Below are positions 3,505 through 10,247 of a stretch of DNA of 10,315 bases, one piece after another. Numbering within the stretch: position 1 is the first letter of the stretch; the number at the start of each line of letters is the position of its first letter. A program made the translations under genes and the position numbers. Location of the stretch: contig JAUXDE010000061.1 of assembly GCA_030618495.1 (NCBI GenBank), forward strand, positions 1 to 10,315, in the 5' to 3' direction. Source of the stretch: Clostridia bacterium. Its GTDB lineage: Bacteria; UBA6262; WVXT01; JAUXBS01. Under the pieces are notes generated by a model. That model saw only the letters and a list, made by a program, of their open reading frames with translations. It had not been told where the DNA came from and made no database searches.

Positions 3505-3533
3505 TTGACATAAATGAATGAAATAAGTATAAA
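3505..3533 (+). promoter_or_regulatory. Sigma70 promoter for the small-protein/barrel/ABC importer operon
   Basis: TTGACA (3505-3510), a 17-bp spacer and TATAAA (3528-3533) give a near-consensus promoter. The start would be near 3540, about 20 nt before the gene at 3561. No other good promoter is seen before the next four genes, so it probably serves all five. Confidence 0.7.
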
Positions 3534-3560
3534 TTACAGAGCGTTAACGAAAGACTGATT

Positions 3561-3902
3561 ATGAAAAAAAATCAATACCTTGTCTTAGTTGTATTAATAT
3601 CGTTTATTTCGGTTACCTTTCTTTACCCGTATTTACATACAGATGAAGAATGCTGTTATCTTTGTGGTTCTGGCGGGGTGTTATCCTACAATAAAACAGG
3701 CAAAACTAACGCTCACGAACATGAAGATTCATGCCTGGGGTGTTTCTATGAGAAAATGATTCAATCAGTATGTTTGATGATTATACTGCTGATAGTTCTG
3801 TTGAAAATATTGAATTTAAAATTCGTTAATGATAGTAGTGTCACTTACAAAGTATTTCTAAATAGTTATTCATGCCGGGCTCCTCCCCTTGTAAATCTGT
3901 AA
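3561..3902 (+). CDS. Small Cys/His-rich double-TM protein with C-terminal RAPP motif
   Basis: The protein has 113 residues and no firm function. Residues 4-24 form a hydrophobic N-terminal segment (signal anchor or signal peptide). The middle (26-61) is rich in metal ligands: H26, CCYLC (31-35), HEHED (52-56) and CLGC (58-61). A second hydrophobic helix spans about 66-86, and the tail ends SYSCRAPPL. The layout of N-terminal TM, Cys/His loop, second TM and a terminal S-x-RAPP is seen in small proteins of metal loci, including DUF2946-like ones. That link is recalled from the pattern and not proven. It is the first gene after the 3505-3533 promoter and starts the operon with the barrel and ABC importer, so a role in metal binding, sensing or handover is inferred. 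The Shine-Dalgarno is weak (GAAAGA). Confidence 0.75.
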   Translation: MKKNQYLVLVVLISFISVTFLYPYLHTDEECCYLCGSGGVLSYNKTGKTNAHEHEDSCLGCFYEKMIQSVCLMIILLIVLLKILNLKFVNDSSVTYKVFLNSYSCRAPPLVNL

Positions 3903-3953
3903 AAAACCACGCTTTAAAACCACCAAAAATTATAGTATCCAGGAGATATACAT

Positions 3954-5261
3954 ATGAAAACACATACATACTTATATATATTAATAATATTTGCATTAAT
4001 GGGTTTTAATGATATATGTTTTGCGCAGGACGATTTGAATGTTGAAGAAATTCTTAAAGAAGCAGGTTCTGCCAGGGAAAAAGAAAAACAGCCGGAAAAG
4101 GATGAAATAGAGAAGATAGAAAAGCAGTCAGGGGAATACAAGGGGTTCAAGTTGCCCTGGTTTTCATCGCTTCAGAATCCTTCTCTCGGGGTAGTGGTAG
4201 ACGTGCTTATGCAATCAAGCGACAGGAAAAACTCCCATGACAGCGCTAACAGGATTGATATGAGGGAAGCCGAGCTTATTTTGTACTCTAACATAGACCC
4301 GTTTATCCAGGGGAATGTGTTAATTGCCATGGGTGGTCATCATGGAGTCGAAGTGGAGGAGGCTTCATTGTTGTGTACGGGATTACCGTTCAATCTTCAG
4401 CTTAAGGCGGGCAAGTTCTTGCCGCAGATATGCAGGCTTAATAAAGTCCATACTCACGATCTTCCGTTTGTGGAACATCCCGTCACGATGCAGAATTTTC
4501 TGGGGGCGATTGAGAAAATAGAAGCAGATGATTTTTCTTTGGATTGTGAACCGCATTTCTGCGCTTCAGGGGCAGAACTTGCATGGCTTGCGCCGACAAA
4601 ATATTACTGGAGAATAATTGCCGGAATGCTTAACGGTTTCTCTCAGAGGGGAGAGGATACTTTTTACGCTCAGTTTATACAGCGGGTTGATGGCGTGAAT
4701 CCCGCATACAGGAATTTCGATGATTTTGCCTATACGGTAAGTTCAAAATGGTTCTTCCAGTTAAACCAGAACCATTCCCTGAAAATTAACTTAAGCGGTA
4801 TATTTGACAGCCCTGACTCTGATAATTCACGAAAGACACAGTCTGTTGCAATGACGTATAAATGGTTTCCGTTAAAAAGCGGTTTATATAAATCGCTGGA
4901 ATGGAGTACGGAAGCGTTTTTTAACCAGGAAAAGTTCAATAGTCCTGAAATAGTGAATACTCATGGTTTCTATTCTTATGTGAATTATAAGCTGAACAGG
5001 CTGTTTTCCATCGGAGTAATAGGGGAATGGTCGTTATTCCGTTATGATAGTGGCAAAAAGGCTATTCATTTGGGGACTGCTCTATCTTATCAGCCGAGTG
5101 AAAGGCAGAGGGTAAGGCTGGAGATAGGGTATTATGACAGGGAAGCATGGCTTAACGCTGCCGCGGCCGCTGCGGGGAAAATTGCCGGGGACGGTAAGTT
5201 CTGGCAGGTATTAATACAGTGGTCAGCGGTAATGGGCAGTCATGTGCATTCATACGAATAA
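3954..5261 (+). CDS. Outer-membrane beta-barrel, putative metal-uptake porin
   Basis: The protein has 435 residues. The signal peptide ends at about residue 24 (CFA-QDD). A charged, helical Glu/Lys-rich stretch (28-62) follows and may be periplasmic. From about residue 66 there are alternating beta-strand patterns rich in aromatic and Gly residues. The block with DPF (115-117), VEVEEA, LPF, LKAGKF and NKVHTHDLPFVEHP (163-176) matches a group of barrel proteins commonly found next to ZnuA-like ABC importers and annotated as porin-like or zinc-regulated outer-membrane proteins. There is no TonB box or plug domain that I can identify. Candidate ligands include H129, H130, H166, H168, H175, H201 and the terminal HVH (430-432). 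Cys141, 160, 198 and 203 are unusual in a barrel. A strong AGGAG site lies 8 nt before the ATG. The znuA-like gene follows after 18 nt. Confidence 0.75.
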   Translation: MKTHTYLYILIIFALMGFNDICFAQDDLNVEEILKEAGSAREKEKQPEKDEIEKIEKQSGEYKGFKLPWFSSLQNPSLGVVVDVLMQSSDRKNSHDSANRIDMREAELILYSNIDPFIQGNVLIAMGGHHGVEVEEASLLCTGLPFNLQLKAGKFLPQICRLNKVHTHDLPFVEHPVTMQNFLGAIEKIEADDFSLDCEPHFCASGAELAWLAPTKYYWRIIAGMLNGFSQRGEDTFYAQFIQRVDGVNPAYRNFDDFAYTVSSKWFFQLNQNHSLKINLSGIFDSPDSDNSRKTQSVAMTYKWFPLKSGLYKSLEWSTEAFFNQEKFNSPEIVNTHGFYSYVNYKLNRLFSIGVIGEWSLFRYDSGKKAIHLGTALSYQPSERQRVRLEIGYYDREAWLNAAAAAAGKIAGDGKFWQVLIQWSAVMGSHVHSYE

Positions 5262-5279
5262 TACAATAAGGAGAAAAAA

Positions 5280-6269
5280 ATGAAAAGAATTATCCAGGTA
5301 TTTCTTTTAGTAGCTTTAATATCGTTAGCAGTAGGTCCTGTTTCAGCCGGGAAAATCAAAATTGTTGCCAGCACCCCGGATATAAAGGATATGGTCCTGA
5401 ATATATGCGGTGATGATGTGGAAGTTCAAAGTCTTATGTCCGGGGTTGAGAACCATCATGCCGTGCCGCTCAAGCCGAGTTTTCTTGTGGCGCTTTCAAG
5501 GTGCGATGTTCTTATCGTGAATGGGCTGGAGTATGAGCATGCTTTCTTACCCGGGGCATTGATGTCAATAAATAACCCGGATGTAAAGAAGGGCGCTTCG
5601 CATTACATAGATACCAGTAAGTATATAAGACCCTGCGAAATTCCCGACAAAATAGATTTGTCGCTTGGAGACTTGCACCCGCTTGGAGGCCCGCATATAC
5701 ACATTGAACCGGGGAACGGGATATTGATGTGTAAGGTTATTTATGAAGAAATGATAAGACTGTATCCGGAAAATAAGGATAAATGGAAAACCGCGTACGA
5801 GACTTATATCAAGAGGATATACGTAAAGATGAAAGAACTTCAGGAATACGTGAAGGGAACCGAAGGGTTGAAGGTTGTTTTTTATCATCCCGGGTGGGAA
5901 TACCTTACGGATCGTTTTGGCTGGAAGAAGGTTAGTTATGTTGAATCAAGGGCGGGTATACCCCCAACGCCGAAACACATAAGCCAGTTAACTAAAACGG
6001 TAAGGAATGAAAACTGTAAATTGTTGGCTATTGAGACCTGCTATTCCCTGAAAATCCCGAATTATGTTGCTAAGAAAACAGGCGCAAAGGTGATAAGCAT
6101 CCCGCATCATGTCAATGCGATGCCGGGTTGCGAGACTTATATAGATTTCATTGATACGCTTGTTAGAAAGATTGCGGATATTGGCAGGGAAGTATCAATA
6201 GAAAGGGAGGGATATGGGAACGGTGAAAGAAAACGACAGCGCAAAAGAAAAAAAAGGAGACAAGAATAA
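5280..6269 (+). CDS. znuA: ZnuA-like periplasmic metal-binding protein of an ABC importer
   Basis: This is a cluster A-I solute-binding protein for Zn2+, Mn2+ or a related divalent metal; the ion is not determined. It has 329 residues, with a signal peptide at 1-23 (VSA-GKIKIVAS). Likely metal ligands are His59 or His60 (NHHAVPLKPS), His139 in HPLGGPHIH (133-141), His203 in YHPGWEYL and Asp292 in YIDFIDTLV. The sequence belongs to the subgroup with HP-x-GNPHYW and SRAGIPPTPKH-like motifs. Where that subgroup has a PxSVGG stretch, this protein has IPHHVNAMPG, adding His276 and His277. The last 20 residues are an odd Lys/Arg-rich tail, read out of frame across the start of the next gene (56-nt overlap). 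AAGGAG lies just before the ATG. The symbol is by family resemblance only. Confidence 0.85.
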   Translation: MKRIIQVFLLVALISLAVGPVSAGKIKIVASTPDIKDMVLNICGDDVEVQSLMSGVENHHAVPLKPSFLVALSRCDVLIVNGLEYEHAFLPGALMSINNPDVKKGASHYIDTSKYIRPCEIPDKIDLSLGDLHPLGGPHIHIEPGNGILMCKVIYEEMIRLYPENKDKWKTAYETYIKRIYVKMKELQEYVKGTEGLKVVFYHPGWEYLTDRFGWKKVSYVESRAGIPPTPKHISQLTKTVRNENCKLLAIETCYSLKIPNYVAKKTGAKVISIPHHVNAMPGCETYIDFIDTLVRKIADIGREVSIEREGYGNGERKRQRKRKKRRQE

Positions 6270-6978
6270 ATCTGTACTGCTCAAAATAGACGACCTGGTT
6301 TTAGGGTATCATGACATACCGATATTAAAGAATATCAGCCTTGAAATACAAGAGGGAGTATGTATATGCATACTTGGCCCAAACGGTACAGGGAAAACAA
6401 CTTTACTTAAGGGGCTTCTCGGGCTTAATGTTCCCATGCGCGGTAAAATTACGTGGTATTGCGATAATAAGCCCGTAAAGCCGCAAATTGGATATGTGCC
6501 CCAGAAGGAATACCTTGACCCCGCGTATCCATTAACGGTATATGAAGTCGTACTAATGGGAACATACAGGGGTAATGCGCTGTCTCCCTTTATAAGCCAC
6601 TCGCAGAAGGAGACAGCTTTAAAAGCTCTTGAGGAAGTGAGCATGAAAGATTTATCAAGTATGCTTTTTTCAAAATGTTCTGGGGGACAGAGGCAAAGAA
6701 CGCTGATTGCCAGGGCGCTTGCGACAAAACCGAAAATATTAGTTTTGGATGAATTCACAATGGGGATTGATATTTCGGCGCAGAAACAGTTAACCGAATT
6801 ATTAACCCACTTGAATGAAAAGCACAACATATCCGTTATCCTGGTTACCCAGGACGTAAAAGCGGTGCCGGGTATTGTTAAAGAGGTGCTATGGGTGCAT
6901 GGGGGAAGCGTAGAACATGGTTCAGTGGAGGAATTACTGAGTGAAGAATACATAGATAAGATATATGGTAGAGAGTAG
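6214..6978 (+). CDS. znuC: ZnuC-like ABC ATPase with a non-canonical H-loop
   Basis: This is the cytoplasmic ATPase of the metal importer, 254 residues long. A charged, probably disordered stretch of 20 residues precedes the ABC fold, which begins at LLKIDDLVLGY. Walker A is GPNGTGKTT (55-63), the Q-loop is GYVPQKE with Gln97, and the signature is CSGGQRQR (155-162). Walker B is ILVLDEF with catalytic Glu180. Two deviations stand out. Phe181 replaces the usual Pro of LDEPT. In the H-loop, the usual VSHD or VTHD reads VTQD, with Gln213 (codon CAG at 6850-6852) replacing the switch histidine. GGGAGGG lies 5 nt upstream of the ATG and supports this start although it overlaps the previous gene by 56 nt. 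The substrate ion is not known. Confidence 0.9.
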   Translation: MGTVKENDSAKEKKGDKNKSVLLKIDDLVLGYHDIPILKNISLEIQEGVCICILGPNGTGKTTLLKGLLGLNVPMRGKITWYCDNKPVKPQIGYVPQKEYLDPAYPLTVYEVVLMGTYRGNALSPFISHSQKETALKALEEVSMKDLSSMLFSKCSGGQRQRTLIARALATKPKILVLDEFTMGIDISAQKQLTELLTHLNEKHNISVILVTQDVKAVPGIVKEVLWVHGGSVEHGSVEELLSEEYIDKIYGRE

Positions 6979-6993
6979 CGAGAGGAATGATAC

Positions 6994-7902
6994 ATGGAAA
7001 TAATTATAGAGTTACTTTTAGAATTTAAATGGGCTGTTATGGCAAGTGTATTGATGGGGTGCGTCTTGCCGGTATTTGGCGTTTATTTCATTATGAAGAG
7101 AATGGTGCTAATGGGTGTTGCCCTGCCTCATGTGGCATCTGCGGGCATTGCCCTAGCGATGCTTATAGCGCAGAGGGTTAGATTGTTGACGCTTCAGCCG
7201 GGACAAACCCCTTTTCTAAATGAGGAATCACTGGTTTTACTGGCTCCAATAGGTTCTTTTATTGCGATAATGATAGTACTGGGGATATTTACCGTATGCG
7301 AAAACAGGGGGAACTCATTTACTGAAGCAAGATGGGGAACGACGTATATAACTGCAACGGCATTAATGGTAATATTGCTGGTAATGAATCCATACGCTGA
7401 GTCCCATGTCGCCACAATGCTGGAAGGCAGGGTGATTACCGTTACTTCCGGTCAATTGCTTGCTTTATTCATAATGGGTACTGTGGTAGTCGTTATATTT
7501 GCGATTTCCAATAAAGGAATACTGCTTACTTCTTTTGACCCGGATATGGCAAAAAGCATGGGATTCAAGATAATTAACTGGAATATCACTCATTATCTTA
7601 TGTTTGGGATAATAATAAGTATATGTGTTATGATACTGGGGCCGATGTTCGTTTTCGGGTACCTGTTGTTACCTGCGTTTGCCGTGAGGCCATGGATTGC
7701 GGGAATGAGGAGGTTCTTTATTTGTTCTGCCATTGTAGGAGGCATATCCGCATTTATCGGAGTGGTCCTGAGCCTATGGTTTAACTGGCCGCTTGGCCCA
7801 ACTGAAGTATTGGCTGCTTCCGTAGTACTAATTATTTCAAGAATTGCCCATTTAGCATTCAGAGGACTAAACAGGAAAAGAACAATTGTTGCAGGAAGTT
7901 AA
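6994..7902 (+). CDS. znuB: ZnuB-like membrane permease of the metal ABC importer
   Basis: This ABC-3 family permease of 302 residues has about eight hydrophobic helices and forms the channel for metal delivered by the ZnuA-like protein. Recognisable blocks are MKRMVLMGVALPHVASAGIALA (helix 2 and following loop), ARWGTTYITA, SFDPDMAKSMGF, the conserved loop before the later helices, and GPMFVFGYLLLPAFAVRPW, the motif around the ATPase-coupling and pore helices. The loop between helices 2 and 3 (about 60-80) is rather long and polar (VRLLTLQPGQTPFLNEES). GAGAGGA lies 7-13 nt before the ATG and the gap to the ATPase gene is 15 nt, so the two are cotranscribed. It is the last gene of the operon. 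Confidence 0.9.
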   Translation: MEIIIELLLEFKWAVMASVLMGCVLPVFGVYFIMKRMVLMGVALPHVASAGIALAMLIAQRVRLLTLQPGQTPFLNEESLVLLAPIGSFIAIMIVLGIFTVCENRGNSFTEARWGTTYITATALMVILLVMNPYAESHVATMLEGRVITVTSGQLLALFIMGTVVVVIFAISNKGILLTSFDPDMAKSMGFKIINWNITHYLMFGIIISICVMILGPMFVFGYLLLPAFAVRPWIAGMRRFFICSAIVGGISAFIGVVLSLWFNWPLGPTEVLAASVVLIISRIAHLAFRGLNRKRTIVAGS

Positions 7903-7967: not shown

Positions 7968-8591
7968 ATGGAAAGAAAAAACAGGGGTGATAAAAATAAA
8001 ATTCTATATATAGTAATTTTATCGCTTTTTATATTCGTATATTCAGCCTATTCACATCCACATGTATTTATTGACAACAGTGTTATTTTTATTTTTGGTG
8101 AAAATGGCCTTAAAAGTATACAGCTTACATGGGTGTTTAATGAAATGTTTAGCTCAATGGTTATTGAAGATTATGACAAAAATAAAGATGGGGAGTTTGA
8201 TCAAGACGAATTGGAAATACTTCAAATTGATATGTTTTCTAATGTGAAGGATTATTGCTACTTTTGTCATATGACTATTGACGGTAAGGAATTTAAAGTC
8301 AATGAAGTTGTGGACTTTTTTGCTTATATTCGGGATGGAGCAATGGTCGTGTATACATTTATTGTCCCCTGTGAGGTAATAGCAGAAGCCAAGTATAAAA
8401 CAATTGTTTTATCTGTCTATGACGATACATATTACATAGCTGTTACAACTGCAAAAGAGAATTCCGTGCAAGCTGAAGGTATCGTTGAGAAGAATTATTC
8501 ATATAAGATTGTTGATACTCCAGGGAAATCTTATTACTATGGGCAGATTATACCCGAGGAAATAATATTCAAATTTAAAAAATCACCATGA
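7968..8591 (+). CDS. DUF1007-family periplasmic protein with EF-hand, partner of NicO
   Basis: This 207-residue exported protein belongs to DUF1007 (PF06226), a family usually encoded beside NicO Ni/Co permeases; its exact role is not established. The signal peptide spans about residues 1-29, with a -3/-1 fit at AYS. The mature protein would then begin HPHVFID (30-36), the family hallmark. The WVFNEMFSSMV block (55-65) leads into a canonical EF-hand loop at 70-81, DKNKDGEFDQDE, with Asp70, Asn72, Asp74, Gly75, Asp78 and Glu81 at the calcium-ligand positions. FCH (99-101) and beta-strand-like sequence follow. Its stop overlaps the next ATG by 4 nt (ATGA), which indicates coupling. The pair is visibly more AT-rich than its neighbours. 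AAGGGAGA precedes the start. Confidence 0.88.
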   Translation: MERKNRGDKNKILYIVILSLFIFVYSAYSHPHVFIDNSVIFIFGENGLKSIQLTWVFNEMFSSMVIEDYDKNKDGEFDQDELEILQIDMFSNVKDYCYFCHMTIDGKEFKVNEVVDFFAYIRDGAMVVYTFIVPCEVIAEAKYKTIVLSVYDDTYYIAVTTAKENSVQAEGIVEKNYSYKIVDTPGKSYYYGQIIPEEIIFKFKKSP

Positions 8592-9508
8592 AAAAAAGCA
8601 TAATTATATCCTTGTTGATTATTGTCAGCTTCAATGCGATTCTAATGGCTCAAAATCCTTTATTGACCCCTGCCCGCAATAAAGTTGAAGACAATGTGAG
8701 AAGCATCAAATATCCGGTGCCCATTCAAAAGTTGCTTTCCAAAATAAATAACCTGCAAATAACACTTAATAAAAATATGACAAAATTATTCAATGATATA
8801 GAAGAAGATAAATCCAAAAAAGCGTTGATATTGATATTTATTGTAGCATTTCTATATGGCGTTTTACATGCGGCTGGACCTGGACATGGAAAGGTAATGA
8901 TTGCATCGTATTTTATGACAGAACGGGCAAAAATAGTGAATGGTTTTATTGCCGGTGGAATGATAGGTTTTATCCATACAGTATCTGCTGTTATTGTAGT
9001 GACGATACTTTATTTAATAATAAAGGTTTCATATCTTTCTAATATTGAAAATATAAGCATAATAGTAAAATCAGTAAGTGCTTTATTAATTATAGGGATA
9101 GGAATATTTTTACTAATTAAGGCAATCCACAAAATATCCATGGGAAAAGGAATAGAAATATTTACAGATAGTAAAGAAGCAAATAGCAATAAAAGTCTTT
9201 TAATTCTTTGTTCTTCAATAGGAATTGTTCCCTGTCCTGGAGTAACAATAATACTTTTATTCGCTATTAACAAAAATGTTTTGCCGGTAGGACTGGTTGC
9301 TATTGTTTTTATGTCATTAGGAATGGCATTTACAATTTCGCTGGCAGCTATTATAACGATTACAGCCAGGAAATATGTTTTTAATTTTATACAAAAGAAA
9401 CCCAGGATATACAATATACTCGAATTTTCCATTCATGTTCTTGGTGCTATTTTTATAATTATATTTGGCATCCTATTATTCCTGTCTAACGTTGTAAAAG
9501 TTCTTTAA
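8588..9508 (+). CDS. Second NicO-family nickel/cobalt permease
   Basis: This 306-residue inner-membrane transporter is a paralogue of the minus-strand NicO gene in this window. The N-terminal hydrophobic segment (4-20, MAQ) may be a signal peptide and is followed by a polar region of about 55 residues. Then come HAAGPGHGK (94-102), further helices, the SSIGIVPCPGV signature (209-219) and final helices ending near residue 301. The central loop between the two halves (about 181-202) has one histidine and no His cluster, unlike the other NicO. The operon partner is the DUF1007 protein, a frequent genomic pairing. Metal and direction (import or export) are not readable from the sequence. Base composition is AT-rich like that of its partner. 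Confidence 0.88.
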   Translation: MKKSIIISLLIIVSFNAILMAQNPLLTPARNKVEDNVRSIKYPVPIQKLLSKINNLQITLNKNMTKLFNDIEEDKSKKALILIFIVAFLYGVLHAAGPGHGKVMIASYFMTERAKIVNGFIAGGMIGFIHTVSAVIVVTILYLIIKVSYLSNIENISIIVKSVSALLIIGIGIFLLIKAIHKISMGKGIEIFTDSKEANSNKSLLILCSSIGIVPCPGVTIILLFAINKNVLPVGLVAIVFMSLGMAFTISLAAIITITARKYVFNFIQKKPRIYNILEFSIHVLGAIFIIIFGILLFLSNVVKVL

Positions 9509-10218: not shown

Positions 10219-10247
10219 TTGACAAATAATCCAACCTGTGATATAAT
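10219..10247 (+). promoter_or_regulatory. Consensus sigma70 promoter for the right-edge gene
   Basis: TTGACA (10219-10224), a 17-bp spacer and TATAAT (10242-10247) match the consensus at all twelve positions. The start would be near 10254, giving a leader of about 33 nt before the ATG at 10287. Confidence 0.85.

Follow-up and report, generated by a model that had tools for sequence, protein, structure and literature searches.

A candidate CruR-like arrest leader at the head of a probable zinc-uptake operon with a porin-like barrel

CruR of Bordetella is a copper-sensing upstream open reading frame (uORF) whose signature is a CxxC motif and a C-terminal RAPP, 45 residues apart; a ribosome stalled at RAPP prevents Rho from acting, and copper on the CxxC releases the stall (PMC9426467). 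Later in vitro work demonstrated this arrest, the P site being occupied by the third RAPP residue and the A site by the fourth (PMC12992588). We analyzed a 10,315-nt stretch of DNA (hereafter, the window), which is the entire contig JAUXDE010000061.1 of a 1.7-Mb draft genome of a Clostridia bacterium (GCA_030618495.1), and which carries a five-gene operon that begins with a gene for a 113-residue protein. Based on its anatomy as read from the sequence, this small first gene is probably (at roughly 0.75) a CruR-like, metal-responsive arrest leader, i.e., a uORF that would shut a zinc-type uptake operon when metal is plentiful. The assignment was made because the protein has a RAPP ending, a CruR-like CxxC spacing, and synteny with the gene of an outer-membrane barrel.

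Leader peptides that stall the ribosome use RAPP as their arrest motif (PMC10951233, PMC10987492), and arrest at RAPP in other leaders was demonstrated by cryo-electron microscopy and toeprinting (PMC10951233, PMC12992588). The ApdA, ApdP and RQH arrest peptides resemble the protein studied here in being small, exported, encoded upstream of regulated genes and equipped with a C-terminal RAPP. They differ in that they precede secA, secDF or yidC and sense export, and no CxxC/His sensor is described in them, whereas barrel and ZnuABC genes lie downstream here (PMC10951233, PMC10987492). CutF of Rhodobacter capsulatus (cutFOG, PMC9973294) is similar as a nascent, exported metal-sensor leader with a Cys pair and a Pro-rich C terminus, but it activates with Cu and has a CxxxC and a stem-loop masking the Shine-Dalgarno (SD) sequence; no strong stem-loop was found here (fold z +1.18). 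In a survey of 5,334 CutF-like proteins the neighbors were RND, TonB, PCuAC and HupE/UreJ, and zinc is absent from its text (PMC9973294). A 2025 census of RAPP/RGPP small proteins gave TonB, YcnI, PCuAC and PepSY as the downstream metal-homeostasis classes; its main text has neither the word zinc nor a barrel-ZnuABC class, a statement that covers the main text only, as the figures and appendix might hold one (PMC12992588). We found no description in the literature of a zinc-linked member of such arrest leaders.

The features of the operon and of the pair of genes that follows it are these:

3505-3533, + strand: sigma-70-type promoter-like site, TTGACA (3505-3510), a 17-nt spacer and TATAAA (3528-3533), matching the consensus at 11/12 positions (direct reading)
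3561-3902, + strand: leader open reading frame (ORF), 113 aa, with a hydrophobic segment, CCYLC, HEHED, CLGC, a second hydrophobic segment, RAPP, four residues and the stop (ORF list)
3732-3743, + strand: CLGC codons, putative metal-binding CxxC, 44 residues N-terminal of RAPP
3871-3940, + strand: C-rich, G-poor, rut-like stretch spanning the leader end and the gap, the 70-nt interval with the highest C-minus-G of the operon strand
3876-3887, + strand: RAPP codons CGG GCT CCT CCC, predicted arrest motif; the CTCCT is complementary to the AGGAG of the barrel gene
3903-3953, + strand: leader-barrel gap, including the barrel SD sequence AGGAG at 3941-3945 (direct reading)
3954-5261, + strand: predicted 16-strand porin-like outer-membrane barrel, 435 aa, with an N-terminal signal-like segment (profile, AlphaFold model)
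5280-6269, + strand: ZnuA-type substrate-binding protein, 329 aa, putative ligands H60, H139 and H203 (PF01297, 4e-40)
6214-6978, + strand: ZnuC-type ATPase, 254 aa (ABC_tran PF00005, 1e-27)
6994-7902, + strand: ZnuB-type permease (ABC-3), 302 aa (PF00950, 3e-29)
7968-9508, + strand: DUF1007 and NicO pair, ZevAB-like (family matches)

An earlier reading of the window from its letters alone (the sequence-only reading) had described the small protein as double-transmembrane with CCYLC, HEHED and CLGC. These motifs (residues 31-35, 52-56 and 58-61) and the two hydrophobic segments were confirmed, the N-terminal segment starting at residue 7 and being of the export-signal or transmembrane type. 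Absent from that reading was the C terminus, ...CRAPPLVNL, in which RAPP occupies residues 106-109, four residues short of the stop. The CLGC-to-RAPP separation is 44 residues, within 1-2 residues of the 45 in CruR. Like CruR (DUF2946, PF11162; encoded in bp2923-bfrG-bp2921 of Bordetella pertussis, PMC9426467), the protein is a predicted exported small first gene product of an operon for metal uptake that also encodes an outer-membrane protein and has a C-over-G stretch, of the kind that was mapped in cruR as the rut region on which Rho acts. The two operons differ in that a porin-like barrel and ZnuABC are found here and a TonB receptor and PepSY in that of CruR, and the predicted ligand is zinc here and copper in CruR. 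The leader appears to resemble CruR in plan, agreeing in the anatomical features compared except for the long gap. It was not filed as a DUF2946 protein because it has no match to the PF11162 profile; among its sister leaders from other loci, described below, 12 of 49 matched PF11162 at E<=0.1 (best 9.5e-7).

When the 113-aa sequence itself served as the query, no relatives were identified in the contigs of its own genome, and the best match in 60 genomes (E 0.04, locus L035) was not a gene of this kind. The leader did match the profile A3, to which it had contributed, at E 2.6e-11, and was the sole match in its genome. As the leader had no findable sequence homologues, relatives were sought via the neighboring barrel. 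A profile built from nine barrels identified the barrel in 72 of 386 genomes and 65 of 325 genera, across bacteria, with all matches but the window's own listed as sharing only a domain with the window barrel. From these, 71 barrel loci were collected, 68 of which were scorable for small ORFs.

A small ORF was called RxPP-positive if it had R[AGSD]PP within its last 16 residues. Such endings were found in 50 of the 187 small ORFs adjoining the barrel upstream, compared to 10/1679 elsewhere on the same strand and 6/2043 on the opposite strand. At least 49 of the 68 scorable loci had a small ORF of this type directly upstream of the barrel, and a tally from family codes placed the positive loci in 38 GTDB families other than the window's own. 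Control motifs (A, K, L, P or E in place of R, and the reversed motif) were at or near background beside the barrel, while HxPP and QxPP were slightly above it and may be real variants of the motif. Looser inspection added RxPP-type loci (L029, L081 and L117) and HAPP, QSPP and HSPP variants among L111, L098, L087, L088, L097 and L108. Four of these (L087, L088, L097 and L108) make up a sub-group in which the leader at the barrel locus has KHSPP rather than RxPP at its end, a possible variant arrest motif. None of 40 ZnuA loci without a barrel had an adjacent RxPP ORF, the one found being a chance ORF more than 2 kb upstream; the association of the leader is with the barrel and not with ZnuA by itself. 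The sequence-only reading had proposed counting how often homologues of the small protein neighbor the barrel and ZnuABC-like genes. By this count, leaders of the same plan directly precede the barrel and are absent before ZnuA genes without a barrel, rather than lying mostly outside metal loci.

The sister leaders were only 13-26% identical to that of the window, with a mean column identity of 14%. Nevertheless, 39 of 51 leaders had a CxxC that preceded the motif by 42-49 residues, with a median of 44 (15 leaders at 44 and 10 at 45), compared with a mean of 0.46/51 and a maximum of 3 in 2000 trials with shuffled residues. The spacing constitutes independent evidence because the leaders had been selected by their C-terminal motif alone. 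Eleven of the 12 leaders without the CxxC still had a Cys at 43-49 residues before the motif, 46/51 had two or more His at positions -75 to -49 relative to it, and nearly all had an N-terminal hydrophobic segment. What the leaders have in common is a plan rather than a sequence. At locus L089, a single barrel is preceded by two distinct RxPP leaders arranged in tandem (5083-5355 and 5494-5805 in reverse-complement coordinates), both with His pairs and CxxC. The only named organisms with a barrel locus in plasmid records were Sulfurovum mangrovi and Vibrio campbellii, and no RxPP leader was seen in the latter. In S. mangrovi, the row consists of a HAPP leader, the barrel, a substrate-binding protein annotated as zinc, and a permease; the leader (L192 3677-4033) has HHH, CQVC and HAPP, with 69 residues between CxxC and motif, which is outside the 44-residue rule.

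The barrel itself had no Pfam match above the cut-off (BBP2, 0.015). Its AlphaFold model has 16 strands (pLDDT 67.8) and matches the porins VhChiP, Omp32 and OprO at E about 1e-10 to 1e-12, which suggests a porin-like, non-TonB outer-membrane protein. Neither a barrel nor a ZnuA match was found in the five genomes (G001-G005) that share genus or order with the window's genome, and this genome may have acquired the operon horizontally. Two other genomes (G102 and G368) each have four barrel matches and several ZnuA genes.

The sequence-only reading of one near-consensus promoter followed by five same-strand genes with short gaps was borne out by the coordinates and the sequence. The promoter-like site was omitted by our automated promoter scan, which requires a final T. 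Spacings along the order leader, barrel, znuA, znuC and znuB were 51, 18, -56 (an overlap) and 15 nt, and a terminator scan of the window found no terminator-like site between leader and barrel. At the 56-nt znuA/znuC overlap (6214-6269), the ZnuA terminus is a Lys/Arg run, ERKRQRKRKKRRQE. The clustering of PF01297, PF00005 and PF00950 gives the gene set of a ZnuABC importer, and the operon resembles the ZnuABC zinc importer in having ZnuA, ZnuC, ZnuB and the three-His site. It departs from the usual arrangement, which is controlled by Zur, in its non-TonB barrel and leader. Barrel and ZnuA were on one strand in 62 of the 71 barrel loci, usually with ZnuB as well, so that the proposal of a trans-envelope metal uptake operon is well supported. 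We consider it a probable zinc-uptake operon. The 65-nt gap between znuB and the DUF1007 gene lacks a terminator-like site, and the DUF1007 and NicO pair may be cotranscribed as the end of the operon transcript.

From the observed anatomy, motif, spacing, synteny and base bias we infer an arrest, its ligand, and the direction and mode of a switch. A ribosome making the leader would stall at the C-terminal RAPP, at which point CLGC, 44 residues back, should sit at or just beyond the exit tunnel, given the length of the tunnel. Under metal scarcity, this ribosome would mask the C-rich stretch at 3871-3940 and the downstream genes would be expressed. When metal is plentiful, the CxxC and nearby His would bind it, the chain would fold and pull, and the stall would be released, upon which expression of barrel-znuACB would end. 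The off-switch would most likely be Rho-dependent termination within the C-rich gap, or else a re-pairing of the CUCCU in the RAPP codons with the AGGAG of the barrel gene.

A Rho-dependent off-switch was favored because the excess of C over G in the gap fits Rho better than it fits an SD switch. C exceeded G in the leader-barrel gap at 37 of 42 loci (median (C-G)/(C+G) of 0.15), compared with values of -0.03 both upstream of the leader and upstream of barrel-less znuA (p about 1e-5), and a rho gene is present in the window's genome. A SecM/CutF-like translational switch, in which the stall frees the barrel's ribosome-binding site rather than blocking Rho, is a tentative alternative to which we give clearly the smaller share of belief. 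The first Pro codon of RxPP in 50 leaders was CCU in 23 (9.2 expected) and CCG in 9 (20 expected), and CCUCC occurred in 25/50, a bias that could reflect anti-SD pairing or tRNA choice at the stall. In the window, CUCCU can pair with AGGAG, and masking of the ribosome footprint raised SD accessibility (z 2.8). The accessibility effect was not significant over 42 loci (p 0.11), however, and the window gap folded no better than shuffled sequences (z 1.18). Overall, these two results do not support a conserved SD-masking hairpin. A role as a structural chaperone for the metal, or as an accessory subunit of the importer in the membrane, would suit the exported or membrane anatomy of the protein with Cys and His and its place inside the operon, but we regard this as quite improbable. 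The leaders are nearly unconserved save for CxxC, His and the C-terminal RxPP at its fixed spacing, where a working subunit should keep more; proteomes avoid RxPP (PMC12992588); and the small protein is missing from ZnuABC operons without a barrel. The sequence-only reading of a metal-binding or sensing partner therefore holds in its sensing direction, with a cis-acting, self-arresting leader being better supported than a part of the transporter.

The cargo and the leader ligand are most likely zinc, as judged from sequence, because the genes that would be regulated encode a porin-like barrel together with an importer of the ZnuABC type that has a three-His site. At the third site of ZnuA, a His in place of Glu goes with zinc. 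H60, H139 and H203 were nearly invariant across the barrel-linked loci, and H203 aligned with a His of the cyanobacterial zinc-binding ZnuA (2ov1/1pq4), at a position where the manganese protein MntA lacks one. The DUF1007 and NicO families next downstream are what we take to be the make-up of ZevAB. ZevAB is a zinc uptake system of Haemophilus (PMC8000910). A single-sequence search found no such pair at the other barrel loci, and the ZevAB link is only local. That an arrest leader of the same kind instead binds Cu, Ni, Co or Mn, as CruR binds copper, we think unlikely, though less so than a chaperone role. In its favor, CxxC and His are laid out alike in DUF2946 leaders, copper is the metal to which CruR responds (PMC9426467), and the operon has cobalt and nickel transporters as neighbors. 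Set against this are the downstream genes, which are of the ZnuABC type with the three-His site and not copper genes, the ZevAB-like pair, and the zinc annotation of the binding protein in the relative S. mangrovi. The claim of the sequence-only reading that all flanking transporters are Ni/Co types held for those to the left (CbiMQO and NicO, of cobalt/nickel types) and is doubtful for the ZevAB-like pair to the right. A His signature separating zinc from copper leaders was also considered and was rejected, as the position of the His is shared by DUF2946 proteins.

Several points weigh against a zinc-responsive arrest leader in the window. The start of translation of the leader is its weakest point because no SD sequence is evident ahead of the ORF. 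The gap of 51 nt (mostly 41-200 in the relatives) is shorter than the 162 nt of cruR. There is no leader homologue in the genome's own order and hence no close comparison; because that order holds no second copy, the window's leader rests on plan and synteny. A RAPP motif is not in every case enough for a stall, since most RAPP-like proteins of E. coli and B. subtilis that were tested did not stall (PMC10987492). To these are added the non-significant accessibility effect and the CxxC/His layout shared with Pfam-DUF2946 leaders, which makes a copper ligand possible.

Outside the operon, a perfect TTGACA-17-TATAAT promoter with a TG extension was found at 10219-10247, near the contig end, its gene being off the contig. 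At G000:C61 (L036 7590-10396), a second ZnuA-like binding protein lies beside a LolCD/FtsX-like ABC pair, with neither barrel nor RAPP leader.

Control of bacterial zinc uptake has been described almost wholly via the repressor Zur. A regulon study in 2004 reported znuABC in several delta-proteobacteria that lack both Zur and its box, and raised the suspicion that a different mechanism operates there (PMC545781). The authors of the CruR study stated that no riboswitch was known for Cu or Zn (PMC9426467). If the interpretation presented here is correct, such a regulatory gap would be filled by a leader that gauges metal through its nascent chain. Owing to the constant spacing of 44 residues and the RAPP motif, this prediction is open to standard arrest assays, and a barrel without a Pfam family gains an annotation handle through its linkage to the leader. 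We see an even chance that the barrel-linked leaders are widespread zinc-responsive arrest peptides, which would make them a nascent-chain counterpart of Zur for trans-envelope zinc uptake in many Gram-negative groups and the first translational zinc sensor.

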